NCBI GenBank assembly: GCA_903828565.1
Contig: CAIKMQ010000040.1
Coordinates: forward strand, 1 to 64,000
Length of the DNA stretch: 64,000 nucleotides
Origin: an uncultured Leptolinea sp.
GTDB lineage: Bacteria > Chloroflexota > Anaerolineae > Anaerolineales > Anaerolineaceae
Direction of reading: 5' to 3'
The notes under the pieces are model-generated. The model was not told where the DNA came from. It worked only from the letters and a program-made list of their open reading frames with translations, and searched no databases. This document shows positions 12,042-64,000 of the stretch, piece by piece; the first letter of the stretch is position 1; every line of letters begins with the position of its first letter. The translations under genes were made by a program, and so were the position numbers.

Positions 12042-12082
12042 AACACCTCTCCTATTAATAATCTTGAATACAATTGTCATTA

Positions 12083-33059: not shown

Positions 33060-34047
33060 GGCTACCTCCACCCCGTCCGCGAGAAAGCCAGGCAGTGACC
33101 AGACGGTATAGGAAGGGTTGTGCGACCAGGTCTACAGTTCGCGCAGTCCGTTCCATGCGTCCGCCAAATCCGCGTTTGAAGCGATACACTCCCCACAAAC
33201 CATCCGAGCGGTTGGCAAATTGATCTTCCAGTACATCTTCAGGAGCATCCGGAATACCCCACAAGTCGTATTCTTCACATCCTGCCTGCCTTGCCCAGCG
33301 GATGGCTTCCCACTGAAGCAGATAGACCGGCATACGGTTACGCTCATCGTTGGTGGATGCGCCATAAAAATACCAGCAGCGATTGCCGGCCTTGAACAGC
33401 ATGACACCAGCAAGGTTGGTTTTCTGGTACCTGGCAAACAGCAATTGACTGTAATTCCCTGGCGAATGAAGTGAAAATGCTTGCTCATAATACGCTCGCG
33501 AATGGATGCCAAAGCCATCCCTGCTTCCAGTCGTGAGCATCATCTCATGAAAGGCGGCCACGTCCGTCGATGCAGACACATCGATCTCTTTTTTCTCAGC
33601 CAGGTGAATGTTATAGCGCGTCTTCTGTTTCATGCGTGCCAGTATTTCTTCTTCCGAACCGCGGATATCCAACACGATCGTCTGCGCGGGTTGGATGGGC
33701 TTTGCAGTCACCAGGTTCTTGCGTACCGGCCAGGGATCGATACCGGCGCTCTCAAATTGATCAGGTTCCAGGCGGATGAAGATCGCCCGCTTCCGGGCAG
33801 CTAATTGCTCCAGTTCACCCCAAAAAGCTTCATCCAGAGTCCCCAGTGGGCCTTTAGGGATGTAACCGATCGAATATCCGAGAGGAAGGTGTTTGAAGAG
33901 TACTTGCGCATGTGCGCTGCCGCTGCTGATGCGTTCCACCTGCCAACCAAACTGGCTTTTCAATTTGCCCCAGGCAGTACCCTGAAGTACATGCGCCTGT
34001 GGATAATCAGCCAGCAGTGCTGACCATTCAGAGCCAGTCAGAGGCAT
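33052..34047 (-). CDS. FemAB-like aminoacyltransferase/acetyltransferase (copy 2)
   Basis: Paralogue of copy 1 with the same landmarks: VLQGTAWGKLKSQFGWQVERI, MKQKTRYNIHLAEKKEIDVS, FYGASTNDERNRMPVYLLQWEAIRWARQAGCEEYDLWGIPD. The start ATG at 34047 follows GGTGG by 7 bases and lies 2 bases beyond the CapD stop; a TTG start would overlap it. A pair of Fem enzymes would be needed if two different residues are added in series, as in Fem systems of Gram-positive bacteria; here this is inference. Confidence 0.82.
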   Translation of the reverse strand: MPLTGSEWSALLADYPQAHVLQGTAWGKLKSQFGWQVERISSGSAHAQVLFKHLPLGYSIGYIPKGPLGTLDEAFWGELEQLAARKRAIFIRLEPDQFESAGIDPWPVRKNLVTAKPIQPAQTIVLDIRGSEEEILARMKQKTRYNIHLAEKKEIDVSASTDVAAFHEMMLTTGSRDGFGIHSRAYYEQAFSLHSPGNYSQLLFARYQKTNLAGVMLFKAGNRCWYFYGASTNDERNRMPVYLLQWEAIRWARQAGCEEYDLWGIPDAPEDVLEDQFANRSDGLWGVYRFKRGFGGRMERTARTVDLVAQPFLYRLVTAWLSRGRGGGSLG

Positions 34048-34049
34048 GA

Positions 34050-39833: not shown

Positions 39834-40910
39834 TTACTTGCTTTCAATGAAAGACTGGGTCTTTTCAAGGGCGATCTCGTCCTTGTACTGCTCAGGGGGC
39901 GTCTTCATGAAGTAGGAAGATGGCGCTAGCAGGGGGCCGCCAATTCCGCGGTCGAGGGCTAGTTTAACACAGCGAACTGCATCGATCACCACGCCGGCAG
40001 AGTTAGGGGAATCCCACACTTCCAACTTCATTTCTAGGTTTAGAGGTACATCGCCGAAGGTTGTACCTTCCATGCGGATATAGCACCACTTGCGGTCTGA
40101 TAACCAGGGAACATAATCGCTGGGGCCGACATGGATGTTTTCGGGATCGAGTTCGTAAGGAATCATGCTGGTTACCGCGCCGGTTTTAGAGATCTTCTTT
40201 GATTCCAGGCGTTCGCGTTCCAGCATGTTCAAGAAGTCGGTGTTTCCGCCGAAGTTCAGCTGGTATGTGCGATCAATGCGGACACCGCGATCAACGAACA
40301 GGGATGCCAACGCACGGTGTGTGATGGTGGCGCCAACCTGGCTCTTGATGTCATCGCCAATGATCGGCAGATTCTTCTCAGCAAAGCGGGTACCCCAGTA
40401 TCCGGCAGAGGCGATGAACACGGGGATACAATTGACCATGCCGACACCGGCTTCCAGGATCTGCTCAACGTACCACTTGGTCGCCATTTCGGAACCAACG
40501 GGCAAGTAATTGATGACAACATCCGTGCCGGTATCTTTGAGAATCTTGACAATATCAGCCGTCGGGCCGGGAGCTTTCTTGACCACTTGGGAGAGGTATT
40601 TTCCCAAACCATCGTGGGTCATACCGCGATCCACCTTGATCCCGGTCTTCGGAACACTGGTGAATTTATAGGTATTGTTCGGATGAGCAAAGATCGCTTC
40701 CGAAATATCCAGGCCTACCTTGGTGTCGACAACATCAAAAGCGGCACTCCACTCAATATCATGGATGTGGTATCCAGCCAGGTTGACATGCATCAGGCCG
40801 GGAACCCGGTCTGTCTCTTTTGCGTTCTTATAATACTCAACGCCCTGCACCAGTGATGATGCGCAATTCCCGACACCAATGATCGCAACTCTGACCTTCT
40901 TATCACCCAT
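39834..40910 (-). CDS. ino1: Myo-inositol-1-phosphate synthase
   Basis: Converts glucose 6-phosphate to myo-inositol 1-phosphate with bound [21 protein letters not shown] is the cofactor loop. Also present are [66 protein letters not shown] and the [16 protein letters not shown] region typical of the shorter actinobacterial/archaeal class (358 residues). Inositol could feed phosphatidylinositol-type lipids or solutes. A TATAAT-like box sits at 40984-40989 on the minus strand. Confidence 0.92.
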
Positions 40911-48331: not shown

Positions 48332-49918
48332 ATGATCCAAACTGCTTTGAGCTCGTTAAAGACTGGTGCTTCTATTCTCGCCGAACCTGAAAATCTGGCT
48401 GCATGCGCGCAGGAGCTCAACGCCCTGGAAAGTAACCTGGCTCTCGTTCAGGAGGGTAACCAGTTGAAGCTTTCCCGTTCATCCACATCAAGCCAGCTGG
48501 CATTTATCCCGGCCCTCCTGCCTGAATCCCTGGGGGATGCCTCATTCTGCAAGACGTATGGCACCCGGTACGCTCTGTACACTGGCGCAATGGCCAACGG
48601 AATTGCATCTGAGGAGCTTGTCATCGCTATGGGCAAAGCGGGAATGATGGGATCATTTGGCGCCGGTGGATTGTTGCCAGACCGCATTGAACGTGCCATC
48701 CAAATGATCAAGGCTGCGCTTCCTACTGGACCTTACGCATTCAATCTCATTAATAGCCCGAATGAACCCGCCCTCGAGGCTCGGACTGCGGAACTATATA
48801 TCCAACACGACCTCCCGGTGATCGAAGCATCCGCTTACCTGGGGCTGACAATCAACCTGGTGTGGTATCGCGCAAGCGGATTGAGCCAGGACGCAGATGG
48901 CAAGATACTGATCCGGCACCACATCATAGCTAAAGTATCTCGTAAAGAGATCGCAAAGCGTTTTCTGGAGCCTGCACCGGACGATCTGCTTAATCAGCTG
49001 GTCTCAGATGGCAGGATTACCCCCCAGCAGGCTGAATTGGCACGCCGGGTTCCCATGGCAGATGACATCACTGTGGAAGCGGATTCAGGCGGTCATACCG
49101 ACAACCGTCCCCTGGTTAATGCCCTGCCAGCCATCATTCGATTAAGAGATGCGGTTCAAGAAAAACGCCAGTATGCGCTCAGCGTCCGCATCGGAGCTGC
49201 CGGAGGTATCTCCACCCCAGAAGCTGCTCTCGCCGCTTTCATGATGGGTTCTGCCTATATCACCACCGGTTCCATCAACCAGGCCTGCGTTGAGGCTGCT
49301 GCCAGTGAACACACTCGCCGATTGCTCCAGCAGGCTGAAATGACCGATGTCGCAATGGCTCCTGCAAGCGATATGTTCGAAATGGGAGTGAGAGTTCAGG
49401 TGCTAAAACGCGGAACCATGTTCGCAATGCGGGGACAGAAGCTTTTTGAGATCTACAGCCGCTACAATTCCATTGATGAAATTCCTGCAGCTGAACGTGA
49501 AAAGCTGGAAACCAGTACCTTCCAGATGTCTCTTACCGATGTCTGGCAGGAATGCCTAAAATTCTTCACCCTCCGTGATCCCCGGCAAATAGAGCGGGCG
49601 GAAAAAGATCCCCACGCCAAAATGGCACTGATCTTCCGCTGGTACCTGGGGCTATCTTCCCGCTGGTCCAACATCGGCGAGAAGGGCCGTGAAATGGATT
49701 ACCAAGTCTGGTGTGGCCCAGCGATGGGTGCGTTCAATGATTGGGTGAAAGGCACTTACCTCGAGCAGGTGGAAAACCGGCATGCACCGGATGCCAACTT
49801 GCACATCCTTACCGGAGCTGCCTACCTGCTGCGTCTGCGCTATCTCGAAAGCCAGGGGATCAAAGTCGATCCAGCCCTGGCAACATACTCCCCGCAAAAA
49901 TCCTTGATACAAGCCTAG
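48332..49918 (+). CDS. pfaD: PfaD-type trans-acting enoyl reductase
   Basis: Flavin-binding TIM-barrel protein of 528 residues in the PfaD family of polyunsaturated-fatty-acid and polyketide systems. Hallmarks are FCKTYGTRYALYTGAMANGIASEELVIAMGKAGMMGSFGAGGL, YAFNLINSPNEPALE, VEASAYLGL-like VIEASAYLGLTINLVWYRA, ADDITVEADSGGHTDNRPL and VRIGAAGGISTPEAALAAFMMGSAYITTGSINQA. It would reduce enoyl intermediates on the adjacent synthase, which lacks an internal reductase. It is transcribed towards the transferase/synthase genes and separated from them by a shared terminator. Confidence 0.93.
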   Translation: MIQTALSSLKTGASILAEPENLAACAQELNALESNLALVQEGNQLKLSRSSTSSQLAFIPALLPESLGDASFCKTYGTRYALYTGAMANGIASEELVIAMGKAGMMGSFGAGGLLPDRIERAIQMIKAALPTGPYAFNLINSPNEPALEARTAELYIQHDLPVIEASAYLGLTINLVWYRASGLSQDADGKILIRHHIIAKVSRKEIAKRFLEPAPDDLLNQLVSDGRITPQQAELARRVPMADDITVEADSGGHTDNRPLVNALPAIIRLRDAVQEKRQYALSVRIGAAGGISTPEAALAAFMMGSAYITTGSINQACVEAAASEHTRRLLQQAEMTDVAMAPASDMFEMGVRVQVLKRGTMFAMRGQKLFEIYSRYNSIDEIPAAEREKLETSTFQMSLTDVWQECLKFFTLRDPRQIERAEKDPHAKMALIFRWYLGLSSRWSNIGEKGREMDYQVWCGPAMGAFNDWVKGTYLEQVENRHAPDANLHILTGAAYLLRLRYLESQGIKVDPALATYSPQKSLIQA

Positions 49919-49928
49919 CTAAAAGTAA

Positions 49929-49958
49929 ACCCCGGCAATTATCACTAAACGCCGGGGT
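49929..49958. terminator. Bidirectional terminator between pfaD and the transferase gene
   Basis: An 8-bp stem (ACCCCGGC with GCCGGGGT) is followed by CTTTTATT on the plus strand. On the minus strand TTTACTTTT follows. It overlaps the last codons of the converging transferase gene. Confidence 0.7.
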
Positions 49959-50658
49959 CTTTTATTGTAAGCTTGAGTTCGACCTCTGCTGGCCCTGCCA
50001 GTTGACAGATAGTCAATACATATTCATCCACCTGCCGCCATGCCGCTCGGGGTTGATAGGGTAAACCAGCTACAGAAATCTCAAACTGCTGCCAGCCTGA
50101 TGGTGTAGTGATCTGATGCAACCACGAACGGCATTCAACTATCCGCGTATCCATGGAAAGCCCTCGGCCGAGTGCTTTCATTGCAGCTTCCTTAATGCTC
50201 CAAAGCAAACTGCTGTCGCGGGGTAAATCCTCGCTGTCAGCCAGCCACGATTGCTCACCCGTGGTGAAATAATCCTCCAGAAATGCTTCGGAATGGGATG
50301 TGATCTTTTCCAGATCACATCCAAAAATGTCGGCTTCATTCTGTGAAAACCCGGCAAGAACTGCCCCCCCGCTATGGGATAAGGAGATGCTCCCGAAGGG
50401 TTCACCAGATACCATCACCCAGGGCTTCCCGGAAAAATCCTTTTTTATTTCAATGATACCAATTTCCTCATCAGGTATTTTTACGGTCTGCCGGATGAGC
50501 TGCTTCGCCAACCAACGGCTGGCCAGCCATTCATCCCTTCTCTGAGGGATGGTCATGCGCTCTAACTCATGCTGTTCCTGTGGTGACAGCAGAGATTCCA
50601 GCAGCATGCGCGCCTTGTCAAACCCGCTGGAATACTTCCAGAACTCAAGCTCGATCAT
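49945..50658 (-). CDS. 4'-phosphopantetheinyl transferase (Sfp family, PfaE role)
   Basis: Installs the CoA-derived phosphopantetheine arm on carrier domains. About 237 residues: ASRWLAKQLIR, WVMVSGEPFGSISLSHSGGAVLAG, the Mg-binding FGCDLEKI and the WSIKEAAMKALGRGLSMD motif. The Glu of the metal triad and Lys of the KEA motif are in place. It lies 49 bases downstream of the megasynthase and is probably in its operon, indicating a dedicated partner for that synthase's unusual carrier domains. Confidence 0.92.
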   Translation of the reverse strand: MIELEFWKYSSGFDKARMLLESLLSPQEQHELERMTIPQRRDEWLASRWLAKQLIRQTVKIPDEEIGIIEIKKDFSGKPWVMVSGEPFGSISLSHSGGAVLAGFSQNEADIFGCDLEKITSHSEAFLEDYFTTGEQSWLADSEDLPRDSSLLWSIKEAAMKALGRGLSMDTRIVECRSWLHQITTPSGWQQFEISVAGLPYQPRAAWRQVDEYVLTICQLAGPAEVELKLTIKDPGV

Positions 50659-50707
50659 GTGAACACCGGACGGCAGAGTATGATCTCCGCCGCCCGGTAT
50701 ACCCTTT

Positions 50708-53700
50708 TTAATCCTCTCCGATCAGAACCCGCATGGGAGCCAGCAGCACCGGATCCGATGTATAAGGCAATGGAGATGTCTGATAATTCTGTACCTCCAG
50801 GAACACCTGGCCTTGCGAATCCACCACGCGGGCGTTAAATCGCAGCGTGCCATCTGTATTCACTGGATGAACCTCTGCAAAAATGGCTTCACCATTAACT
50901 GGCCGCGGGTAGATCACCAGGCTGCCGATCGCATGGGGTAAAGCCATAGTACCGGTAGACGCTGCTTCCCATAGACCGGCGGTTTGGAAACATAGCTCCA
51001 CCAGCATGGGGACGCTCAACTGCCCATCCTTCGCAGCTTCTTTCACCCGGTCAGCAAGTTTTCCCAGAACCGCATCACCGGACCGGCTGGCGCAGTCGAT
51101 CACCTGAAATGATGGTCCGTGGAAGTACAAGCGGTAGATATCATCCGCGCACACCGTGGCGGTATCCATCCAAACCGGGATATCTGTTGACACGGCGGGG
51201 GTAACCGCCTTTTCAGCCAGGTAGACCTTGCCGCTAAAGTGCAGTAGATGTTGATTACTGCCGTCATGCCGCGCGGTATCAGATTCCAGGGTTGCATGCA
51301 CGACCAGCTTGTCATCTTCTTTCACAGCACGGGCTTTCCACTGTATGTGGCGTGGCTGATTCTTATAGAATTTGAAAGGAGCCAGGAATCGGATGTCTTC
51401 CAACCGGTCAACTGAGAAACCGCCTTTTCTCCCGGCCAGCGTACTGGCGATATGCCTGGCGGCCACCGAGAATCCCTCAATCCCGATCACACCGGGTAAT
51501 ACGGGTGTGCCGTTGATGGCATGATCCTGTAAAAATGCATGTCTGGCGGGATCCAGCACGGTTTCCAGATGCAGCATTCCCTGTGCGTCAAAATCAACCA
51601 CATGAGACAGCATGGCATGTTCCGGTGTTCCGGCACGCAAGGCAGCATCCGCGCGAGCTGTATCCAGCCCGTGGCCTTCCCCGGCAGCCAATAGCATGCC
51701 ACCCAGGTTACCAGCTACTACCACCTCACCCCGTGTTCCGGCTTCCAATTCGCGCCGGACAAAAATTGCCGCTGCGCCAGGTTTCATCATACTGATCCCG
51801 GCACGCTCCATCAACATAGGAATGCTGCCGCGGCTGGCCATACCCACTTCCGCCCAGGCTCCCCAGTCAATGGAGATTGCCTGGATTGACGGCTGGCTGT
51901 TGTTCAACCAGGCAGCGACCTTACTTAAGCCATCATTGGCGGCACTGTAGTCCACCTGACCGGCGTTACCGAAACGCCCGGCGACCGAAGTAAAGAACAC
52001 TACCCGTTCTGGCTGACATTCTGCATTTTGCATTTCTTTGTACAGATTGAAGAAGCCGTCAATCTTCACATCCATCACCTGGTGGAATTCTTCGACCGAC
52101 TTGCCTTCCACCTTCCGACTCTTCTCCACTCCCGCAGCATGGATGAAGACATCCACCCGCCCGGCTTTAGCCGCTATCGAACGGACCGCTTCACCGCAGG
52201 ATTGTGCATCCTGAACATCACAGATGATGTTTTCTACACGGCCGCCCAAAGCCGAAACGGCAGAGATCATCTCATGCATGGCCTTTGCTTTTTCCAGTAT
52301 GGCTAACTGCTGGTCGATAGCGACCGGGGTTGCTTTCTTGCCGGAATCTGTGATGGCCGCGGCAATCTCGCTTTTTAATCCTTCCCGATCCACAGTCAGT
52401 TTTTTCAGTTTGGGATCTCCAGCAGGCAACAGGTGACTACGGCTGAGCAAAAAGAATGTGCCTTTTGTTGCATGGGCCAAATCCAACACCACCGGTGGAA
52501 TTATGCCCGCCGTACCACCTGAAATTACAAATACCGATCCCTGTGTTAATGGTTGGGTGCCTGCAGGCATCGCTTCGTCCAGGACGACCGGCGTATAACG
52601 CAGGTCGCCTTCCCGGCTGATCTCGACCGCAGACGAATCATGCAGTGTTTCATCCAACAGATGGCTGGCGATGTTTACCGGGCTGGAGGTTATCTCAAAA
52701 TCCACTACTTTAGCGAAAGTTAATTTCCGTTCTCGGGCCAGAGCTTTCACAAAGCCAGTGACGACTCCACCCAACGGGTTGGAGGTCCCGGAAAAGCCCA
52801 TCAGACCGCCCATCCGGGTGGCTGCAATGACAAATGTCTGCTCAGGCAATACTTTGGCCAGCGTGAAGAGAGTTTCAGCCCGCTGATCAATAGCTGACTT
52901 CCACCCATGGAGATCTGTGTTTTTCCAAACCGGGTCTGCATCCAGAGCGGGCAGGAAGTAAACACCCTGAATAGCTCCTTTTTCATTCCATTCGATCGTC
53001 TGGCTGGCAGCTTCAGCCGCAGCTACAATCAAGGTTTGTACACCCCGGGCTTTCAGCTTTTTTGCCAGTGCCTCGGCAACCTTCCCGGTGTCTTTAACAA
53101 TCAGGATTCGGCTATTATCATTGAGCTCTACACCCGTTGGCAGGCACAGATCCAATCTCGGCCGCATTACAGGCCGTGGAACTCTCCTTTGAATGGCCGG
53201 ATCGACTTCTTCTTTGTAAGCCACCTGCTTAGATACTTCCGCTTGAGCGCCGTCTTCTGACCGCTGTTCTACTGCGGATTGCGCAAGGTTATCCAAAACA
53301 AAACCAATCACCTTGTTCAAAGTGTTGTATTCGGATAGGCGCAAATCTTCACGCCGGGGGATGCCGTAATGTGTGCGGATCGAAGCGAACAGCTCAGCTT
53401 GTTTGACCGTATCGATACCCAGATCGGCTTCGAGGTCCAATTCCAGGTCCAGCATCTCAGGAGGATAGCCGGTCTTCTCGCTAACCACTCCGAGTACGTG
53501 TATCCGGATCGCATCTGTTTCGCTTCCGTTGTCTTTTCCGGTGGTGGCTGCATCCTGGCTTTTTTCCACTACAGTCTGTTCTACCGCTGGCGAAATGGGA
53601 GTTTGTATGGAGGTAGTTGCTGCACCTTGATCCAGGTTACCGGTCACAAACCCGATCACTTTATTGAGCGTATTGTATTCAGCCAGACGCAGATCTTCCC

Positions 53701-56700
53701 GCCGGGGGATTCCATAATGCGTGCGGATGGTTGCGAACAGTTCCGCTTGTTTGACAGTATCAATGCCCAGATCTGCTTCCAGATCCAGTTCCAGGTCAAG
53801 CATCTCGGGGGGGTACCCTGTCTTCTCGCTGACCACCTGGAGAACATGTGCCCGAATCTCTTCTACGCCCATATTTTGCGGCACGTTCAGAGCGCTGGCT
53901 GTTTCAACAGGTTTCCCGGTCAAAACCTTTTGGCTGAGCGGCGCAACCCTTGCCTCTACCACTACAGGACGCGGATGCAGATTTCCCGGACGACCTGCCC
54001 ACAGCGTGGGTCCTTGCCCATACTGCCAGCGGGATCCTGACGGACTGCGGCGCGGTTCGCCCTGGTCTTTGATACGCAGGGTCCTGGTCGTGAGTTCCAG
54101 ATCCGCATGATCATATCCCGACATCTGCACCAACCAGGGACGGTACACAGCCTGATCGATCCGATTACTACCGCCATCGATTTTCCTGTAAAGGGTCATG
54201 GCGATCTGTGAACCAAAGCCGGCACCGAGGCGTAAGGCATATTGCGGGTCATACTTACCACCACGCGAAAGGTTCAGGTCGCCCAGATCCGGGTCAGGTT
54301 CGAAACCCTCATGGATGTGTGCGATCGGTGGAACCTTTCCCGTTTCCAGTATCTTGACCGCAATGACATCTTCAATACCAACACCCATGGAATGCCCGGT
54401 ATAGCCCTTGGTATTCGCAACGATCACTTTATTCGCCACAGAGCCAAAAGTCTGCCTCAAAGCATGGATCTCCGCCGCAGCGCTGCCACCGCGTGCAGGG
54501 GTGTACGTTTCATGGGAGATGAAAGCCAGGCGGGGAGCCATGTCACTGCGAAGGTCATTGAAACGGGATTCAGCAACACTGACCACCCGTTCCATAATAG
54601 ATGAAACATGGTTCACATCCAACCGGGTACCGTGGAAGGCTGAATTGGCGGTCACCGTAGCAACCACCTCGCAAATTCCTCGCACCCCGCGTTCACGGGC
54701 GGCGTCTTCACTTTCAAGCACCAGTGCCGCCGCGCCCATCCCCATGATCATCCCGTTGCGCCGTCGATCAAACGGAAGTGCGGCTACGCGCACATTCCCT
54801 TCGGTCGTGGCAGCTCCGCTGGCAAACATGCTCGTGCCGATCCATTTCACCAGATTGGGATTGGTCACATCATCACCGGCTATGATGATCACCCGCCGGC
54901 ATCTGCCGTTGCGAATCCAGTCCTCTGCGATGGATACCGCGTGGGTGGTGGTCGCACAAGCCGCGTTCACGTGGGTGTTGGGACCTTTCGCCCCGATGTA
55001 TTCCGCGAATTGCGCATGCCCCATGGATAACACACGGAAAATGAACCTGCGATCGAAACTGTAGTTTAATTCCTCGATCTGGTTGCGGAGTTCAATTGCC
55101 CGCTGTTCCAAGGCAGTCACAACCTGAGGTGTACCAGCCTTGCTGAACTGGAAGATAAGTGTCTGTACCTCATCCAGTTGGGCGGAAAGCACCTGGTACT
55201 GGCTGTATGCATCCGTTTCCTGTGCCATGCGGTCTAAACCCGGGAATGCCGCGCAAAAGATCACCCCGGTCTCTTCTTGCATGGCAGCCGGCAACTTCCA
55301 ACGGTCCGGTAAATATGTGCCTCTGCTGGTACTTTTATAGCTCATCACCAGTGGTATGCCGGCATCCCTTAGTGCTTCGATACCCGCAGCAATCGCCAAT
55401 TGAGAGCTGATATCCAGCGAACCCACGCGTTCCTCGGGAACGCCGAAATCCTTCTCAAGATCAAAATCTCCCCTCTGGCCTGCCAATTTGATCGTTTGCT
55501 CAACATCTGTGACTTCTTCCATCACTGCGCCGGCTTCGCTTTTAATCAGCCGTGTGACCTTCATATCTAGCATGGATTTACGCATATCATCCGAGAAGGA
55601 TTCAATACGCATCTCACCCGATAAGATGCTCTCAATGTTCCGGTCGTCAAATACCCGGTTATCCTTGCCAGGCAAGCCTAAACCGGCTCCGGTAACAACT
55701 ACCGAACCGGTCAACGGCATTCGCCCCTCGTGGATACCTTCCACGCTTTTCTTGTCAGACTCCGCCCCCTGCTTTGGGGAAGAACTGACTGCCACCTGAA
55801 GCTCAGGCTTTACCGGGGTGCCTCCAATCCCGCTGGCGAATAATCCACAGAGTGCTTCATTGAAGCTGGCTTTACCACCTTTTCGCGGATGATTGGTCGA
55901 GAGGAGTGCCACCCCCGGTTTATCTTTCTGGTTATCTGCTGCCAGGGCGTTCAGAACACGCTTCGGGCCAACCTCTACAAATGCGCGGGCACCCAGGTCG
56001 TACAATGTGCGCATGCTTTTGACAAATTGCACTGGTGAAGCCACCTGCGCCCCCAGTATCTGAACGATCTCTTCGCGGGTAGACGGGTAGACATCACCGG
56101 TGACATTGGCAATGATGGTTCTTTCCGGGGCATGGATCTCCATGCGTTTGATCACTTCCATCAGAGGTACACTGGCTGGTGCCACAATGCGCGTATGGAA
56201 TGCATGTGAAACAGGGATCTTGACCGCCTGGAAGCCTTCTGCGCTGAACCGGGCAACCGCTTCATCCACAGCTGCCGTTTCACCACCGATCACAGATTGT
56301 AACGGGCTGTTGATATTGGCAATGACAACATAGCCCTGAATGCTTTGAAGGATTTCTTCTACTTTGGCCAGTGGAGCTGAGACAGCAGCCATGCAGCCGT
56401 TATCTTCCATTTTTAATTTAGTCATCTCCTGGCCGCGGGCACTGACAACTTCCAGCGCCTGCGCAAAGCTCATCACCCCGGCAGCCACCAGCGCGGCATA
56501 TTCGCCCAGGCTGTGTCCAATGACCATATCCGGTACAAAACCGTATTTTTCCATTACCCGCAGCAGGGCTACATTGGCGGTCAGCATAGCGGGTTGGGTG
56601 ATGGCTGTATTCTTGAGGTTCTTCTCCGCCTGCGCAATAGCCTCTTCGTCACCATCCACATAAATAAAGGCAGTCAGAGGTTTACCCAGAATGGGTGCCA

Positions 56701-58990
56701 TCACCGCATCCGCCTCGTCAAAGGTTGCCTTCACAACGGGTTCGGTTTCATACAGGTCTTTCAGCATATTCACATACTGTGAGCCCTGGCCAGGGAACAT
56801 GAATACAACTTTTCCGGGGTGACCGCTACCGCGGTAAATCCCCTGCCCCTGGAGTGCCTGCCAAGCATTCTGCGCGTCCGCATCCAAAGCATTCAAAGCT
56901 TTCTCTGCGCGTTTCAACAACTCAGGCGCATCGACAAAATCGATTGCGATACGTTCCTGTTTCGCCACCCGATCTGCTGACGGGCAGAGGGATGCTGGAA
57001 TCTGACCGGCTTTAATCCGGCCAATCTCAGCGGATAGCGCTTGCTTCAATTCCTCTTTGCTGTCAGCCGAAGCGAAGAACAATCCCTGATAAGGCAGTGG
57101 GGTGGTGACAGAGGGTTGATGCCCGGTTGGCTGCGGGAAAGAAAGATTGTCTACCGGTGCAGGCACAGCTGCTGACGCAGTTGTTCCAGTTGATGAGTCA
57201 CCAGCCATCGCATCCGCCATGAACTGGATCACTTTGGTGAGTGTGTTGTAATCGGATAACCGCAAATCCTCACGCCGGGCGATCCCGTAATGCGTGCGAA
57301 TGGTTGCGAAAAGTTCAGCCTGTTTGACAGTGTCAACTCCCAGGTCAGCCTCCAGATCCAGTTCGAGGTCGAGCATTTCAGGCGGATATCCGGTCTTCTC
57401 GCTGACTGCGGAAAGTACAAAGCGGGTGATCTCAGCCAGATCCACACCAGCGGCCACCGCAACAGGGACTGCCTGAGCAGTTGGTGATACCGGGTTGGTT
57501 AGTACAGTTTGAGCTGCTGATACTGCAGCAACCGGCTGAGCTGAAACGAATGACTGATTTGAATGTTCCAGCATTCCCGGGCGATATTCTTCCAACACCA
57601 CGTGGAAGTTGGTACCCCCAAAGCCAAAGGAACTAACACCAGCACGGCGGGTTTCTCCACTGTTTACTTCCCAAGATTGCAGAGAGGTATTTACAAAGAA
57701 TGGCATCCCCGAGAAATCAATATTGGGATTCGGACGCTGAAAATTTACAGAAGGCGGCAGCACTTTATGATACAGTGCCAGGCTGGTTTTTAACAAACCA
57801 ACCGCGCCAGCCGCAGACTTTAAATGCCCAATATTGGATTTGACAGAACCTAAAGCGACCGAACCTTTTCGCAATTGATGAGGGGCAAACGCCGCATTCA
57901 GACTGCTGACCTCGGTGACATCACCGACTTTGGTGGAAGTGCCATGTCCCTCGATCAACCCAACAGTCGCCGGGTTCAACCCGGAATCCTTCCAGGCTCG
58001 TTCGATGGCGCGCTGCTGCCCAAGCGGATTAGGAGCGGTGATCCCTTTTCCCTTTCCATCTGATGAGCCGCCAATACCGCGGATCACAGCATAAATCTTA
58101 TCTCCAGCAGCTTCAGCATCTTCCAACCTTTTAAGCAGGAAAACAACTGCACCTTCACCCATAACAAAGCCATTGGCGCCATCCGCGTACGGCCGGGAGC
58201 CATCCGCAGATAGTGCACCGATCTTGCAAAACTTGACATAAGATTCTGGCCCCATACTGCGGTCAATACCACCGGTGAGCACAGCATCAAACTTGTGATT
58301 CTCAAGGCCATCTACCGCAGCCTGCAAGGCAGCCAGAGAAGAAGCACAGGCTGCATCCGTAACAAAATTGGGGCCGCTGAAATTGAACACATTGGCTACC
58401 CGCCCGGCGATGATATTGCTCAATTCACCCGGCATAGTGTCTTCAGTGATATCTGGAACCTTCGCCCGAATGCCGCTCAACAAGCCATCCAGCAGGGAAC
58501 GTTGCGTCTCAGGTGGCAGTTGTTGAAAGTTGGGGATGGACTGAAGGATCTCGAGGTATTCAGGGGCATGGATCCGCAGTGTGGATATGTAGTGCCTTTC
58601 GCCGGCATTCGAATTCCCGAAGATGACAGCTACCCGTTCAGGATCGAGCGGCTTGTTGGGATACCCGTAATCAATCAGGGCTTGGCTGCTGGCGGCAATT
58701 GCCCACTGTTGGGCAAAGTCCATCATAGCCATTACGCGCGGCGGGATGGGCAGGCCGAGCTTGAGTGCATCCAGCTGATACCCCTGGACGTAAGCGCCAA
58801 TTTTCGTATATGTTTTATCCGGCGCTGACGGGTCGGGATCATAATACTTGCTCACACTCCAACGATCATCCGGCACATTGGTGATCGAATATCGGCGGTT
58901 GGCAATGTTTTCCCAGAAAGCTGGTACGTTAAAGGCATCGGGCAGAATGGCTCCCATACCTACGATGGCGATTGCTTTAGTTTGCGACAT
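50708..58990 (-). CDS. Pfa-like multidomain lipid/polyketide synthase, KS-ACP-AT-KS-ACP-ACP-KR-DH
   Basis: A 2,760-residue iterative synthase. KS1: AIVGMGAILPDAFN, Cys215 (DAACASSLAA), His349 (EGHGTST) and His389 (SNIGHLKSAAG). ACP1 at about 520-592. AT: VFMFPGQGSQ near 730 and Ser827 (GHSLGE). KS2, from about 1097, is divergent: Cys1345 (NAACATTT), His1493 (SHETYTP, replacing HGTGT) and His1533 (KGYTGHSMG). ACP2 and ACP3 lie at about 1713-1784 and 1830-1900. The KR-type SDR has Tyr2348 (GQVDYSAAND). The double-hotdog DH has His2490 (DHAINGTPVLP) and HGPSFQ. No reductase or thioesterase domain is seen, so PfaD supplies reduction. All three ACPs carry Thr at the pantetheine site. The product is presumably a long, perhaps unsaturated acyl chain; this is inference. 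Confidence 0.92.
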   Translation of the reverse strand: MSQTKAIAIVGMGAILPDAFNVPAFWENIANRRYSITNVPDDRWSVSKYYDPDPSAPDKTYTKIGAYVQGYQLDALKLGLPIPPRVMAMMDFAQQWAIAASSQALIDYGYPNKPLDPERVAVIFGNSNAGERHYISTLRIHAPEYLEILQSIPNFQQLPPETQRSLLDGLLSGIRAKVPDITEDTMPGELSNIIAGRVANVFNFSGPNFVTDAACASSLAALQAAVDGLENHKFDAVLTGGIDRSMGPESYVKFCKIGALSADGSRPYADGANGFVMGEGAVVFLLKRLEDAEAAGDKIYAVIRGIGGSSDGKGKGITAPNPLGQQRAIERAWKDSGLNPATVGLIEGHGTSTKVGDVTEVSSLNAAFAPHQLRKGSVALGSVKSNIGHLKSAAGAVGLLKTSLALYHKVLPPSVNFQRPNPNIDFSGMPFFVNTSLQSWEVNSGETRRAGVSSFGFGGTNFHVVLEEYRPGMLEHSNQSFVSAQPVAAVSAAQTVLTNPVSPTAQAVPVAVAAGVDLAEITRFVLSAVSEKTGYPPEMLDLELDLEADLGVDTVKQAELFATIRTHYGIARREDLRLSDYNTLTKVIQFMADAMAGDSSTGTTASAAVPAPVDNLSFPQPTGHQPSVTTPLPYQGLFFASADSKEELKQALSAEIGRIKAGQIPASLCPSADRVAKQERIAIDFVDAPELLKRAEKALNALDADAQNAWQALQGQGIYRGSGHPGKVVFMFPGQGSQYVNMLKDLYETEPVVKATFDEADAVMAPILGKPLTAFIYVDGDEEAIAQAEKNLKNTAITQPAMLTANVALLRVMEKYGFVPDMVIGHSLGEYAALVAAGVMSFAQALEVVSARGQEMTKLKMEDNGCMAAVSAPLAKVEEILQSIQGYVVIANINSPLQSVIGGETAAVDEAVARFSAEGFQAVKIPVSHAFHTRIVAPASVPLMEVIKRMEIHAPERTIIANVTGDVYPSTREEIVQILGAQVASPVQFVKSMRTLYDLGARAFVEVGPKRVLNALAADNQKDKPGVALLSTNHPRKGGKASFNEALCGLFASGIGGTPVKPELQVAVSSSPKQGAESDKKSVEGIHEGRMPLTGSVVVTGAGLGLPGKDNRVFDDRNIESILSGEMRIESFSDDMRKSMLDMKVTRLIKSEAGAVMEEVTDVEQTIKLAGQRGDFDLEKDFGVPEERVGSLDISSQLAIAAGIEALRDAGIPLVMSYKSTSRGTYLPDRWKLPAAMQEETGVIFCAAFPGLDRMAQETDAYSQYQVLSAQLDEVQTLIFQFSKAGTPQVVTALEQRAIELRNQIEELNYSFDRRFIFRVLSMGHAQFAEYIGAKGPNTHVNAACATTTHAVSIAEDWIRNGRCRRVIIIAGDDVTNPNLVKWIGTSMFASGAATTEGNVRVAALPFDRRRNGMIMGMGAAALVLESEDAARERGVRGICEVVATVTANSAFHGTRLDVNHVSSIMERVVSVAESRFNDLRSDMAPRLAFISHETYTPARGGSAAAEIHALRQTFGSVANKVIVANTKGYTGHSMGVGIEDVIAVKILETGKVPPIAHIHEGFEPDPDLGDLNLSRGGKYDPQYALRLGAGFGSQIAMTLYRKIDGGSNRIDQAVYRPWLVQMSGYDHADLELTTRTLRIKDQGEPRRSPSGSRWQYGQGPTLWAGRPGNLHPRPVVVEARVAPLSQKVLTGKPVETASALNVPQNMGVEEIRAHVLQVVSEKTGYPPEMLDLELDLEADLGIDTVKQAELFATIRTHYGIPRREDLRLAEYNTLNKVIGFVTGNLDQGAATTSIQTPISPAVEQTVVEKSQDAATTGKDNGSETDAIRIHVLGVVSEKTGYPPEMLDLELDLEADLGIDTVKQAELFASIRTHYGIPRREDLRLSEYNTLNKVIGFVLDNLAQSAVEQRSEDGAQAEVSKQVAYKEEVDPAIQRRVPRPVMRPRLDLCLPTGVELNDNSRILIVKDTGKVAEALAKKLKARGVQTLIVAAAEAASQTIEWNEKGAIQGVYFLPALDADPVWKNTDLHGWKSAIDQRAETLFTLAKVLPEQTFVIAATRMGGLMGFSGTSNPLGGVVTGFVKALARERKLTFAKVVDFEITSSPVNIASHLLDETLHDSSAVEISREGDLRYTPVVLDEAMPAGTQPLTQGSVFVISGGTAGIIPPVVLDLAHATKGTFFLLSRSHLLPAGDPKLKKLTVDREGLKSEIAAAITDSGKKATPVAIDQQLAILEKAKAMHEMISAVSALGGRVENIICDVQDAQSCGEAVRSIAAKAGRVDVFIHAAGVEKSRKVEGKSVEEFHQVMDVKIDGFFNLYKEMQNAECQPERVVFFTSVAGRFGNAGQVDYSAANDGLSKVAAWLNNSQPSIQAISIDWGAWAEVGMASRGSIPMLMERAGISMMKPGAAAIFVRRELEAGTRGEVVVAGNLGGMLLAAGEGHGLDTARADAALRAGTPEHAMLSHVVDFDAQGMLHLETVLDPARHAFLQDHAINGTPVLPGVIGIEGFSVAARHIASTLAGRKGGFSVDRLEDIRFLAPFKFYKNQPRHIQWKARAVKEDDKLVVHATLESDTARHDGSNQHLLHFSGKVYLAEKAVTPAVSTDIPVWMDTATVCADDIYRLYFHGPSFQVIDCASRSGDAVLGKLADRVKEAAKDGQLSVPMLVELCFQTAGLWEAASTGTMALPHAIGSLVIYPRPVNGEAIFAEVHPVNTDGTLRFNARVVDSQGQVFLEVQNYQTSPLPYTSDPVLLAPMRVLIGED
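53290..53850 (-). repeat. Tandem carrier-protein repeats ACP2-ACP3 (third copy at 57215-57430)
   Basis: Two near-identical coding repeats spaced by 116 codons, each reading VSEKTGYPPEMLDLELDLEA then DLGIDTVKQAELFA. The third, more diverged copy lies about 3.7 kb away in the same gene. Codons differ between copies (ACT, ACG, ACT for the key Thr), so they are not recent exact duplications. Confidence 0.9.
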
Positions 58991-59545: not shown

Positions 59546-60391
59546 TCAGTCCAGATAACCGAACATCATCCGCTTGACGATTAGAGCCTGGAAGAGCAGA
59601 AATAAAGCCACTGCGGGTATTGAGATCAGAATAATAAAGGAACCGAGCATGCTCCACGGTTGTGCATTACCGGATTGAACCATCGCGTATACTGCCATAG
59701 CCAGGGTCACATGGCTGGCTTTTTCAACAAACAACCACCCGATCGCGAATTCAGAATAGGCCAGCAGGAATGAGATCATCCCCGCCACAAAAATGGATGG
59801 GCTGGCCAGCGGTAATGAGATCTTAATAAATGTTGCCCATGGACCCGCGCCATCCAGAAAAGCTGCTTCTTCTACCTCAGGTGAGACAGTCAGGAAACCG
59901 GCTCTGAGGTTCCAGATACAAAATGGCAAGCCAAAAACCGCATACACCAGGACAAGTGCCAGTAATGTAGTTCTCAGATGCAGAGCCGTCATTAGAACAT
60001 AGAGTGGAATGACGAAAGCGATCGGGGGGAGGATCGCCGTCAGGAGTATCACAGTCATACCCAGTTTCTTCCCCGGAAAACGGTACCGGGCCATGGCATA
60101 AGCCAGCATCATACCGAAAATAATCGCCAGGAAAGCCGCAAGTACTGAAACTAGAATGCTATTCAGTAAAAGTCGCGGAAAAATAACGGATTGATAAGGG
60201 CTGTCCAGCACTTTTAGAAATGATGAGAATGACCAAGTTTGCGGAAGCAGTCGGAAACTAGTCGCCCTACCAAACAAAGAACCATCAAATGCCAAGCGGA
60301 GAATTCCCCAAATTGGCAAGATCACAAAAATACCAATGATCATCAATGGTATTTGAAGAAATAACGGGTTAGCTCTGGTTTTTAACCGCAT
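59546..60391 (-). CDS. Sugar ABC transporter permease (MalG type)
   Basis: About 281 residues and six membrane segments. The EAA loop that docks to the ATPase reads EVEEAAFLDGAGPWATFIKISLPLASPS. The MalG signature IFGMMLAYAMARYRFPGKK and the C-terminal FQALIVKRMMFGYLD are typical of family 1 carbohydrate importers. The start at 60391 is one of several ATGs within the overlapping end of the upstream gene. The ATPase and binding protein are not in the window. Confidence 0.88.
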   Translation of the reverse strand: MRLKTRANPLFLQIPLMIIGIFVILPIWGILRLAFDGSLFGRATSFRLLPQTWSFSSFLKVLDSPYQSVIFPRLLLNSILVSVLAAFLAIIFGMMLAYAMARYRFPGKKLGMTVILLTAILPPIAFVIPLYVLMTALHLRTTLLALVLVYAVFGLPFCIWNLRAGFLTVSPEVEEAAFLDGAGPWATFIKISLPLASPSIFVAGMISFLLAYSEFAIGWLFVEKASHVTLAMAVYAMVQSGNAQPWSMLGSFIILISIPAVALFLLFQALIVKRMMFGYLD

Positions 60392-62528
60392 GGGTACCCC
60401 GGGTGACATCATTCTCAAGCCTTATAAAGAACAGAACGAAAACCAACAGAATCACCAGTGTAATCATATTTAGCGCAGCGGCAATGGAGAATTGCCCGCG
60501 AGTGAAATACCCGGTTGGATTAAAGAAATTATAAGAAAGGGTGGCAAGCGTCCCCGAGAACTGGTAAAAAGCCTGAAATAAATAGAATTGATTGAAAGAA
60601 AAGATCGCTCTTAGTATCATTGCCGGTAAAACCAGCGGAGCCAGCAGCGGGAATATTACGTACCTTAATCGCTGCCAACCACCCGCTCCGTCAATACTTG
60701 CTGAATCCATCACTTCAGAAGGGATGAACCGTAGACCAGCGGATGCAGCCAGCATGATGAAAGGGAAACCATACCATAGTCCGGCAATCAAAAGGATGAT
60801 AAGTGTTTTCTCGGGCGTATTCTGCCAATCCGCCAAAAAGGAGAATGGAAATGAACTGCCATACTTGGCAACACCTAAAGCCAGCCAACCGGTTTCAGGG
60901 AGGAAGACATTTCGCCACATCAAAGCCCCGATCATTTCAGGTATTGCCCAGGGGAGAATGAATAAGACCTGCCAGAACGGCCGGAACCAGGTGCGTTTCT
61001 GCCAGAGTAGAAGGGCGGCCGTAACACCCAGCATGGTTTGCAACAGGACCGAAAGAAAAGTCCACATCAGGTTATACGAGATGATGCCAAGTTGCTCTAA
61101 ATATTGAAGAAGCGGCAGGTAATTGGAGAAGCCGAGATAGTTCAACTTCGTGGAAGTATAAGGAAATTCCTGAGAATTGATCGCTTCTCTACCACTGATC
61201 CCGTTGAAAACCGTTCTAAAGATACCACCCTGCATGGCTTCCCGTAATGAGTTACTGTTGAAATCCGTCAGAGAAACACCGAATTGATAGATCAGCGGAA
61301 TGAGGGTCAGGAGACTGAAGAAGAAGAGTCCGGGTATCAGCCATGGCAGCGCTTTGCGGAACTCATTTTTTTCGGGTTCTCTGTTTTCAGATTTGGTTGT
61401 TTTCTTGTGAAAGAACAAGCTCCTTATTGGAACCCCAACCAGCATATCCAGGCCCTCTGCTGCAGCCAAACAGAGAGGGGCAGTCAGCATGATTGTATAC
61501 TGCGGCCACTTGGTTGGCCAAAATAATAAAAAGATGAGGCTGAAAATAAGCCATAGGACAAATACCCGGTATTTATTCCAGAGGCGCACTACACCAAAGA
61601 TTGCCAGCAGTGTGATGAGGGGGTCCAATGCAAAAAAGAACGCCTCCGGTTGCCAAATATTGGGTGAAAAGAACAGCCAGTTCAATGGTTGCCAGACAGG
61701 GTAATTGGCAGATTGTACTTCTGCGGCTCCAGTTGAATACCGCACATGGTAAAAAATGGAATCCAGCAGCCGGGGTAAAGGCTCTTTCCACAGGTAAGGA
61801 AAACAAATCATGAAGACCAATATCGCTACCCCGACCCATAGGGCTAGCATCAAACCCGGTCTGCCTTGTTTCCTTTCAGCGCGGGGGCGAAATACCCAAT
61901 CCAGCAGGACTGCATTTCCCACGATGCAATACATATATTTCGATGCCGCTGTCAAACCCAGGAATACAGCAGAAAGAATGAGCCAAAGTATTTTCCTGCG
62001 CCTGATTCCATTTTCTCTGCGCCAGAGAAGATAAAAGAGAACAACCATAAAACTGGTAAATGCTGGAATACTTTCCAGCATGATCTCAGAGGTATATTTC
62101 ACATTGAATGAGTGGATAGCCTGTAGCAATCCAGCTACCGGGTTCAATAATGAAATGCCGATCGTAGAAGCTACACCAAACACAGCATTCATGATCCTGG
62201 CATTTTTTACCAATGGACGCGGCAAATAGACATTCGGACCGGCTGTAGTCGGGCTATCCTTTACCAATGGGTATTCTTTTTCCGGCAACAGGCTCAATCC
62301 TAGAAGGATCTTGGTCAACTGTGGATGTTCAGGGCGGTAATTCGTCTCTAAAAATCCTGAAAGATCTTTATTCTTGATGAGCGTTGAGAATTGCTGGGCA
62401 GCCCGAAGATAATCATCTTCATCATAATCAATGCTCAGAGTGGTCACAGCTTTCCAGCGAACGAATCCGCTGAGGCTGACCACGAGGAGAATGAGTATGA
62501 TTTTTAGTATCAGGTTGCGATATTGCAT
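60369..62528 (-). CDS. Fusion of GT-C (GT39-like) membrane protein and MalF-type ABC permease
   Basis: One 719-residue frame holds two membrane units. The first (to about 400) resembles Dol-P-Man/ArnT-type glycosyltransferases: the acidic periplasmic loop LSIDYDEDDYLRAAQ after helix 1, RPEHPQLTKILLG and about eight further helices ending FWPTKWPQYTIMLTAPLCLAAAEG. A basic linker (KKTTKSENREPEKNEFRKA) leads to a MalF-like permease (PWLIPGLFFFSLLTLIPLIYQFGVSLTDFN) whose EAA motif is MDSASIDGAGGWQRLRYVIFPLLAPLVLP. The ATG lies 4 bases after the GH13 stop. The frame is unbroken in this sequence. Confidence 0.85.
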   Translation of the reverse strand: MQYRNLILKIILILLVVSLSGFVRWKAVTTLSIDYDEDDYLRAAQQFSTLIKNKDLSGFLETNYRPEHPQLTKILLGLSLLPEKEYPLVKDSPTTAGPNVYLPRPLVKNARIMNAVFGVASTIGISLLNPVAGLLQAIHSFNVKYTSEIMLESIPAFTSFMVVLFYLLWRRENGIRRRKILWLILSAVFLGLTAASKYMYCIVGNAVLLDWVFRPRAERKQGRPGLMLALWVGVAILVFMICFPYLWKEPLPRLLDSIFYHVRYSTGAAEVQSANYPVWQPLNWLFFSPNIWQPEAFFFALDPLITLLAIFGVVRLWNKYRVFVLWLIFSLIFLLFWPTKWPQYTIMLTAPLCLAAAEGLDMLVGVPIRSLFFHKKTTKSENREPEKNEFRKALPWLIPGLFFFSLLTLIPLIYQFGVSLTDFNSNSLREAMQGGIFRTVFNGISGREAINSQEFPYTSTKLNYLGFSNYLPLLQYLEQLGIISYNLMWTFLSVLLQTMLGVTAALLLWQKRTWFRPFWQVLFILPWAIPEMIGALMWRNVFLPETGWLALGVAKYGSSFPFSFLADWQNTPEKTLIILLIAGLWYGFPFIMLAASAGLRFIPSEVMDSASIDGAGGWQRLRYVIFPLLAPLVLPAMILRAIFSFNQFYLFQAFYQFSGTLATLSYNFFNPTGYFTRGQFSIAAALNMITLVILLVFVLFFIRLENDVTRGTHAVKNQS

Positions 62529-62532
62529 AAGT

Positions 62533-64000
62533 TTACTTAGCCGCTTGATCAAGATGATACAAATATATCTGATGCGGACCCAACTCGACCGTTGGGGTGA
62601 TCGTAAACAAGCCATCTGGAGAGATTTTCAGCGCTAAAGGGGAATTACCGCCGTAAATGGGGTTTAGCACGTAATCGCCCGGCTTCAGCTCTTCACCACC
62701 ATACCTGAGGGAGATATCACGGACAGGATTCTCGGAAAGATTGATCAGAATCAGGACAGCATCAGGATCTTGCACACGTAAAGTGGCATAAATGCTCCTA
62801 TTCCGGTTATCCAATTGTGCAATGCTGCCCCGTGACAATGCAGGATACTGCCCGCGGATTCGAATCAGGAACTGGTAGTAACGCAACAATGAATTGCTGT
62901 CGAGCAATTCCTGCGCGACGTTCGTGCCCGGGATAATACTCTGTGGATTCCGCCAGGCTTCTCCGCTAGTAAAACCCATATCACCAGCAGCACTCCATCG
63001 CATTGGCAGGCGAATATCCTCATCCGGTTTCACGCCCTGCATCCCAATTTCCTCACCATAATAAATGAACGGGGTTCCTGGGGAGGTTAGCAGTATGGTT
63101 GCTGCTATCTTTGCTTTCTCCATACTCCCATCCAGAACGCTCATAACACGATTCTGGTCATGGTTTGTCAAAAAGGTGCCAAATCTCCAATCAGGCGCAT
63201 CCTGTTGAATAAAGGTCAGGCCGCTGTTGATGCTTGAATTTGATTCCGCTTTCACACTACTCATGATCGCGTTGGCAAATTCAAAATTAAAGATCATATC
63301 CATCTCCCGGTCCGCATATTGAGTGGTCTGACGGGTGCTGTTGCCCGCCACTTCACCGATCACAAAAGCGTCTGGTTGAATGTTTTTATAGTATTGGTAG
63401 TATTCTTTGAACCAGGCATGGGTCGCCGGCGTATTTTCCAGTTTGTCTCCATCTTCAATGAGATGCTTTGCGGCATCTATCCGAAAACCATCTACGCCAA
63501 TTTCATTTAACCAGAAAGAAGTGATCTTCTCCATCTGTACCGTTACTTCTGGGGTTAAATAATTCAAGTCCGGCATACAGTCACAGAAGTACCCGTAATA
63601 GTATTTTTCAATGCCGTTTACCTGCCTGGGATACCACTGCCGCCCGTGTGTGGTATCGGACCACACATACCAGGAAAAATACTGGGAGGTTTCACCAGCT
63701 GAAGCACTGATAAAGAATGGGTTTTGTGACGAAGTGTGATTGATCACCAGATCCATGATCACATGGATTCCCCTTGAATGGGCTTCGTCCAGAAATCTCT
63801 GAAAGTCCTGCATCGTTCCATATTCCGGATTGATCGCATAATAATTAATGACATCATATCCGTGATATGAAGGCGATGGATGGATCGGCATCAGCCAGAT
63901 CGCAGTTATTCCCAGATCATCAGATGTATCAGGGTCGCCATCATTCAGGTAATCCAATTTCTCTGTCAAACCATTGATATCCCCGATGCCATCGCCATTA
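62533..64000 (-). CDS. GH13 alpha-amylase/alpha-glucosidase family enzyme (N-terminus beyond window)
   Basis: The frame is open to the right edge, where NGDGIGDINGL-like residues show that the start lies outside. GH13 regions are visible: LMPIHPSPSYHGYDVINYYAINPEYG, DLVINHTSSQNPFF, nucleophile Asp in GFRIDAAKHLIE, acid Glu in FVIGEVAG and transition-state Asp in FLTNHDQNR. A C-terminal beta domain ends HQIYLYHLDQAAK. It hydrolyses or transfers alpha-glucosides. First visible gene of a sugar-uptake operon with the fused permease and MalG. Confidence 0.9.
   Translation of the reverse strand, partial: NGDGIGDINGLTEKLDYLNDGDPDTSDDLGITAIWLMPIHPSPSYHGYDVINYYAINPEYGTMQDFQRFLDEAHSRGIHVIMDLVINHTSSQNPFFISASAGETSQYFSWYVWSDTTHGRQWYPRQVNGIEKYYYGYFCDCMPDLNYLTPEVTVQMEKITSFWLNEIGVDGFRIDAAKHLIEDGDKLENTPATHAWFKEYYQYYKNIQPDAFVIGEVAGNSTRQTTQYADREMDMIFNFEFANAIMSSVKAESNSSINSGLTFIQQDAPDWRFGTFLTNHDQNRVMSVLDGSMEKAKIAATILLTSPGTPFIYYGEEIGMQGVKPDEDIRLPMRWSAAGDMGFTSGEAWRNPQSIIPGTNVAQELLDSNSLLRYYQFLIRIRGQYPALSRGSIAQLDNRNRSIYATLRVQDPDAVLILINLSENPVRDISLRYGGEELKPGDYVLNPIYGGNSPLALKISPDGLFTITPTVELGPHQIYLYHLDQAAK

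Follow-up and report, generated by a model that had tools for sequence, protein, structure and literature searches.

A pfa-type megasynthase as the probable primary fatty acid synthase of an uncultured Anaerolineaceae bacterium

How does a bacterium make its membrane fatty acids when the only ketosynthases of the fatty acid type found in its genome lie in what looks like a secondary lipid system? The question is raised by a window of 64,000 nucleotides (contig CAIKMQ010000040.1 of GenBank assembly GCA_903828565.1, positions 1 to 64,000) from an uncultured Leptolinea sp. of the family Anaerolineaceae (Chloroflexota; Anaerolineae), in which a single chain of 2760 aa carries two ketosynthase (KS) domains, an acyltransferase (AT), three acyl carrier proteins (ACPs), a ketoreductase (KR), and a dehydratase (DH). 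Its gene is accompanied by genes for a phosphopantetheinyl transferase (PPTase) and a PfaD-family FMN enoyl reductase. Type II fatty acid synthesis (FAS II) is the common bacterial mechanism. We put at roughly 80% the probability that in this bacterium the megasynthase is the primary fatty acid synthase and has replaced a lost type II system.

The genome to which the window belongs (2.22 Mb in 48 contigs, 99.25% complete) returned to the FabF profile the first and second ketosynthase domains of the synthase (KS1 and KS2), one fragment of KS1, one 22-bit match elsewhere, and nothing more. Its best FabH match, at 65.5 bits, stayed below the cut-off of 292, and its FabD match is solely the AT inside the synthase; ketosynthases of the FabF type and transferases of the FabD type were found nowhere else in this genome, and FabH not at all. 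The preliminary description of the locus had proposed a condensed pfa-like system acting as a secondary lipid system that could make a new lipid class; the first part stands, with no characterised product found, and the second is unsupported, since no other FabF-type ketosynthase, FabH, or other malonyl transferase was found in the genome. One free ACP is present elsewhere in it (G000:C32:202382; L081:4353-4607), a divergent protein of the serine type that lies just over the cut-off (71.1 vs 70.45 bits).

The same pattern extends over Anaerolineaceae, represented here by 54 genomes for FabF and by the 43 of at least 90% completeness for FabH, FabD, PfaD, and PlsX. FabF is over its cut-off in 0/54 genomes, FabH in 0/43, and FabD in 0/43, all FabD matches falling within frames of a synthase or a pfa operon; 42 of the 43 have PlsX. 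Some family genomes have FabH-like matches that stay under the cut-off, with 180 bits at most, in frames of about 330–360 aa, and such frames also accompany a true FabH in relatives. In a sample of 121 genomes of the class, in which the window's genome is the only member of the family, FabF is over its cut-off in 118, the exceptions being the window's genome, G002, and G001; we take the last to be an assembly gap, given that its genus-mates G037 and G065 have both FabF and FabH. Among seven outsiders of the same order, six have FabH and five FabD over the cut-off; one (G187) falls narrowly under that of FabD with a match of 257.5 bits split in two, and another (G192) reaches neither. The plsX neighborhood was considered as a footprint of fabF loss and rejected: fabF lies between plsX and the next gene in G192, G181, G068, and G060, and plsX directly adjoins that gene in the window's genome, but six outside relatives (G203, G204, G054, G188, G200, and G193) also have no fabF there and have FabF, FabH, or a FabF-like frame elsewhere in the genome.

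Three states can be distinguished among the 43 family genomes: (a) 20 with the megasynthase, including one (G170) that also carries a split pfa operon, (b) ten with a split pfa operon, two of them (G122 and G149) assigned from genome matches alone, and (c) 13 with neither. PfaD is over its cut-off in all 30 carriers of a synthase (a and b) and in none of the 13 genomes of group (c), one of which (G171) has a 24-bit match; among 23 genomes outside the family it is over the cut-off solely in G192, which also has the megasynthase. Nine split-operon loci were fetched (L083–L091, from eight genomes of group b and G170), and all nine contain KS-AT-ACPn and KR-DH frames, while eight also have PfaD and seven a PPTase; a PfaB-like frame was present in both loci scanned for it and a FabA-like frame in the single one scanned. 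FabF and FabH over the cut-off and a stand-alone FabD were not found in the ten split-operon genomes of the family, and the split operon is apparently a second replacement of FAS II. The 13 genomes of group (c) (G129, G131, G132, G136, G138, G139, G143, G163, G164, G167, G169, G171, and G179) lack the megasynthase as well as any FabF, FabH, FabD, or PfaD over the cut-off, and 12 of them keep PlsX. Most plainly read, (a) and (b) hold alternative fatty acid synthases, and the members of (c) are predicted fatty acid auxotrophs. In an unrooted tree the PfaD proteins of the megasynthase set and those of the split-operon set stand apart (SH-aLRT 94); a derivation of the former from the split pfa operon was considered and set aside, as an unrooted tree gives no direction.

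The lipids of cultured relatives bear on the product. The type strains of Longilinea, Thermanaerothrix, Ornatilinea, and Levilinea have the synthase and PfaD and are without FabF, FabH, and stand-alone FabD, and these four, together with Anaerolinea thermolimosa, which also has the synthase and PfaD (L106), are among eight earlier type strains with published fatty acid profiles. The major fatty acids of these eight, as tabulated in Table 1 of PMC4070665, range from C14:0 to C20:0 and are straight, iso, or anteiso, with none unsaturated, and a passage of the same paper states that unsaturated acids were not observed in the other Anaerolineae species. A primary fatty acid synthase fits the saturated C14–C20 major acids of the cultured carriers.

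The synthase itself is encoded on the reverse strand at 50708..58990 in an open frame whose domains, assigned with Pfam, NCBIfam, and motif reading, follow the order KS1-ACP-AT-KS2-ACP-ACP-KR-DH. KS1 (aa 5–470; 57581..58978) is matched by Pfam at residues 5–292 and 300–417 and has, by its motifs and by alignment, the triad Cys215-His349-His389. ACP1 (about aa 525–590; 57221..57418), recognised by its motif, has Thr554 (codon 57329–57331) at the phosphopantetheine site and precedes the malonyl/acyl transferase domain (aa 729–1032; 55895..56806), which is matched by Pfam and by the FabD model and contains the motif GHSLGEY. KS2 (aa 1088–1665; 53996..55729) is a divergent FabF-like domain, our marker for the lineage, identified by profile, PDB matches, and alignment of its triad Cys1345-His1493-His1533. 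The remaining carriers are ACP2 (aa 1716–1781; 53648..53845; Pfam and motif), with Thr1745 (codon 53756–53758), and ACP3 (about aa 1832–1897; 53300..53497; motif, alignment, and an AlphaFold2 model), with Thr1861 (codon 53408–53410). The KR (aa 2153–2381; 51848..52534) and the DH (aa 2458–2742; 50765..51619), a double-hotdog domain of the polyketide synthase (PKS) type with HxxxGxxxxP and Glu2665, were both identified by Pfam, motif, and alignment. The gene for the PPTase, an open frame of Sfp size with a Pfam match to the ACPS superfamily (49945..50658, reverse strand), lies 49 bp downstream on the same strand, and that for PfaD (48332..49918, forward strand), an open frame matching NCBIfam TIGR02814 with 656 bits against a cut-off of 449, is convergent with the PPTase-synthase pair, tail to tail.

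This agrees with the preliminary description in its three open frames, its domain order, its external PfaD and own transferase, and its lack of a thioesterase beside a single DH: Pfam and NCBIfam gave no thioesterase match in the synthase, and the third ACP rests on direct reading of motifs, which found three where Pfam finds two PP-binding stretches. On the PfaA model the synthase scores 985.4 bits, below the NCBIfam cut-off of 1010.1, and no genes for PfaB or for a KS-CLF-DH2 protein (PfaC; CLF, chain-length factor) were found among the frames around it. The catalytic residues of the KS, AT, KR, and DH domains are invariant in the aligned rows, and all 96 KS2 rows, among which are duplicates, keep an intact Cys-His-His triad in this domain. 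The intact triad rules out KS2 as a chain-length factor. A FabH-like priming role for KS2 was likewise rejected: Pfam ACP_syn_III covers 37 of its residues with 28.5 bits, but its profile and PDB matches are of the FabF type.

The chain is not restricted to the Anaerolineaceae lineage. When named genomes were scanned with KS2 (the 80 best of at least 584 loci were used), the matches included the family type strains Longilinea arvoryzae KOME-1 (G151), Thermanaerothrix daxensis GNS-1 (G152), Ornatilinea apprima P3M-1 (G133), and Levilinea saccharolytica KIBI-1 (G142). Profiles built from the family synthase recover this chain together with a PPTase in Roseiflexus, Caldilineales, Oscillochloris, Myxococcota, and Acidobacteriota loci. 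An assembly artefact, which the preliminary description had allowed for, is excluded by the whole chain in 18 loci from relatives and in those of named type strains, among them assemblies of few contigs (two in G151, six in G152). The phylogeny of both KS domains, proposed there as a check, separates a family-type clade from the rest in the KS1 trees and in the KS2 trees (SH-aLRT 100 each). Among loci with at least 3 kb beyond the synthase, PfaD lies in the flank of 31 of 33 loci of this clade vs 0 of 20 outside it, and the two exceptions (L065, from G178, and L119, from G153) have PfaD elsewhere in the genome; a PPTase lies in the flank of 33/33 clade loci and 19/20 outside loci (52/53 overall).

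A chain with KS, AT, KR, and DH that is joined by PfaD would be expected to run a fully reducing cycle. In the mechanism that we propose, the AT would load malonyl groups onto the ACPs, which the neighboring transferase is predicted to turn into the holo form; KS1, KS2, or both would condense, and the KR would reduce and the DH dehydrate on the same chain. PfaD, separately encoded, would finish the reduction in trans, presumably giving a saturated chain in each round. Priming would proceed without FabH, branched starters included, and release without a thioesterase. The predicted products, chains of about C14–C20 that may be straight or iso/anteiso, would pass to PlsX and phospholipid synthesis, either directly or via the free serine-type ACP.

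The carriers on which this cycle would run are unusual in that all three ACPs of the window read DLG(I/V)DTVKQAELF, with threonine at the position of the phosphopantetheine serine. Threonine occupies this position in 265/265 readable ACP copies of the lineage: 51/51 and 113/114 in two sets of the family-type clade, 2/2 in G192, 1/1 in G185, and 98/100 outside; the three misses over all sets are matches with an unreadable pattern, and some genomes are counted twice. By contrast, 23/23 ACPs have serine in the family's split pfa operons. Alignment places the threonine of the window opposite the serine of solved ACPs, and in an AlphaFold2 model of ACP3 (pLDDT 93.3), whose top-ranked PDB matches are ACPs, Thr37 (Thr1861 in the chain) opens helix II. 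We noticed no report of threonine-type ACPs in the open-licence literature, judged mostly by titles and the openings of abstracts: in the available parts of the papers, a survey covering 79 Dictyobacter vulcani carriers gives the motifs DSL, DSI, and HSL "among others" (PMC12391972), the main text of Shulse and Allen (PMC3098273) uses neither the word threonine nor the word serine, and the threonine of PMC11744666 adjoins a serine and does not replace it. The catalytic residues of KS, AT, KR, and DH are invariant and the PPTase gene flanks 52/53 loci, and we therefore think that the threonine is loaded by this dedicated neighboring transferase; either it is, or the threonine-type domains work otherwise. 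We lean towards the wider view that a former secondary lipid synthase, with threonine-anchored carriers and a co-evolved transferase, occurs in several phyla and became, together with PfaD, the sole fatty acid synthase in Anaerolineaceae.

Several observations weigh against a primary role of the megasynthase, and we take them together with the explanations to which they lend weight. In the accessible portions of two papers, the S36T variant of Escherichia coli ACP was used as an unmodifiable, non-functional ACP in the first (PMC3340395) and also appears in the second (PMC13343975). The threonine-type ACPs might then never be loaded and be structural, the synthase serving a free serine-type ACP such as the one just over the cut-off in this genome, an arrangement compatible with any product. 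We regard this as doubtful: drift would be expected of unused domains, against which threonine is kept within its motif in every readable copy, each complete mapped chain has one to six ACPs, and the PPTase gene stays at the flank of the synthase.

Other observations concern the role of the synthase in the cell. Uptake is apparently able to sustain members of the family, given group (c), and would in principle be possible for carriers too. The fatty acid profiles come from published cultures of relatives, not from the source organism. G192 (UBA6092; L067 and L172) has the synthase and PfaD yet keeps a plsX-linked FabF, with neither FabH nor stand-alone FabD found over the cut-off, and is possibly an intermediate state or the result of transfer. 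G185 has a synthase from outside the family-type clade and no PfaD; L164, whose record bears the name Anaerolinea sp., groups with the PfaD-less clade and lies on a contig of only 5 kb; and G002, which belongs to another family and is 92% complete, has KS2 with no FabF or FabH over the cut-off and no PfaD match, on a synthase contig that stops 0.85 kb past KS2. A synthase that makes a special long-chain lipid in a cell that takes up its ordinary membrane fatty acids from the surroundings would agree with the 13 family genomes that seem to live without any such synthase, with the missing thioesterase match, and with the closest relatives, in which KS2 coexists with FabF (of 12 class genomes with KS2 above 700 bits, ten keep FabF, the other two being the window's genome and G002). 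Unsaturated acids would be expected if the fatty acids came from yeast extract. We hold this explanation to be improbable, in that carrier type strains without FabF, FabH, and FabD have iso/anteiso and straight saturated acids, PfaD, which is required for full reduction, accompanies the synthase in 30/30 genomes, and the catalytic set is conserved.

The search for FAS II itself covered FabF, FabH, FabD, and FabZ, leaving out FabG, FabI, and FabK. FabZ was dropped as an uninformative marker, as none of 66 genomes reaches its cut-off, relatives with FAS II included, and this although many have FabF and FabH; the dehydratase of FAS II in the class seems not to be a standard FabZ. That a divergent or unassembled FAS II has merely escaped the search, as the draft assemblies, the missed FabZ, the three enzymes outside the search, and the lack of FabF in G001 beside genus-mates that have it might suggest, is very improbable given that matches to the FabF profile were listed down to about 18 bits, a level at which a relative of FabF should show, and that the results are consistent over 54 genomes for FabF and 43 for FabH and FabD.

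If the megasynthase is indeed the primary synthase, a family common in anaerobic sludge and sediments would have swapped type II synthesis for a pfa-type megasynthase, and a class of synthase listed without a product in 2011 would gain a role and a culturable test bed in Longilinea, Levilinea, Ornatilinea, and Thermanaerothrix. The threonine carriers, if loaded, would depart from the rule that serine bears the phosphopantetheine arm, and the pair of carrier and transferase could be orthogonal to serine-based pairs for engineering.

The window contains other genes of note. Cytochrome bd oxidase subunit I (10677–12080) is encoded near ABC transporter genes (6108–9649), and isolates of the family are described as anaerobic. 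Two neighboring FemAB-family genes (31941–34053) adjoin a polysaccharide synthesis cluster, and a myo-inositol-1-phosphate synthase (39834–40910) may point to inositol phospholipids. In a frame of 748 aa (60369–62615) the ABC permease domain takes up only the C-terminal third, and the N-terminal portion resembles a membrane protein of another kind, either a fusion or a start-site artefact.

Among known systems, the marine PfaABCDE synthases of omega-3 polyunsaturated fatty acids (Types A and B) share with the window PfaD and a PfaA-like KS-AT-ACPn-KR arrangement. They differ in PfaB and the KS-CLF-DH2 protein PfaC, which the window is without, in the PfaA score, which for the window falls under the cut-off, and in their ACPs, which usually have serine. 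According to the consulted text of Shulse and Allen, marine pfa hosts keep a complete FAS II (PMC3098273), and, as an excerpt of PMC8174602 records, marine pfa genes complement the loss of fabD in E. coli. The idea that a secondary lipid synthase replaces FAS II has a precedent in Type S (Desulfobacterium autotrophicum) and Type M (Renibacterium), suggested in the same portion of PMC3098273 to be the core or only complete fatty acid synthase. Their cluster types differ from that of the window, and the genes described there as missing are fabA and fabZ in single strains, whereas here FabF, FabH, and FabD are concerned, family-wide. We noticed no report of FAS II loss in Anaerolineaceae in the open-licence literature, judged mostly from titles and abstract openings, and a phylogenomic study of the family (PMC10937449) contains nothing on fatty acid synthesis in its available part. 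The split pfa operon of other Anaerolineaceae is like the window in its PfaD and in FabF, FabH, and stand-alone FabD not being found in the genomes, and unlike it in its separate genes, its serine-type ACPs, and a KS1 that falls in a separate clade.

The nearest known kind, which the window resembles with PfaD added, is Type R of Shulse and Allen (2011), outlined in the same part of PMC3098273 as KS-MAT-CLF-ACP(3–6)-KR with a PPTase downstream, product unknown, in Roseiflexus, Koribacter, Solibacter, and Elusimicrobium. The window differs from it in the PfaD that adjoins the synthase (Type R as described has no ER or PfaD in the cluster, and the 20 outside loci have none), in the ACP between KS1 and AT, shared with many relatives, in that no FabF was found beside the synthase, in a second KS with an intact catalytic triad where the paper names a CLF, and in a DH after the KR, a domain not listed for Type R in the text at hand. 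In KS1 and KS2 trees that place it beside loci of Roseiflexus, Solibacteraceae, and others, the paper's own sequences not included, its synthase belongs to a separate and fully supported clade. The two have in common a KS, a MAT, a second KS, ACPs, and a KR on a single chain followed by a PPTase, a KS2 that is 53–58% identical in the loci of Roseiflexus, Caldilineales, and Oscillochloris, and, on both sides, ACPs of the threonine type.
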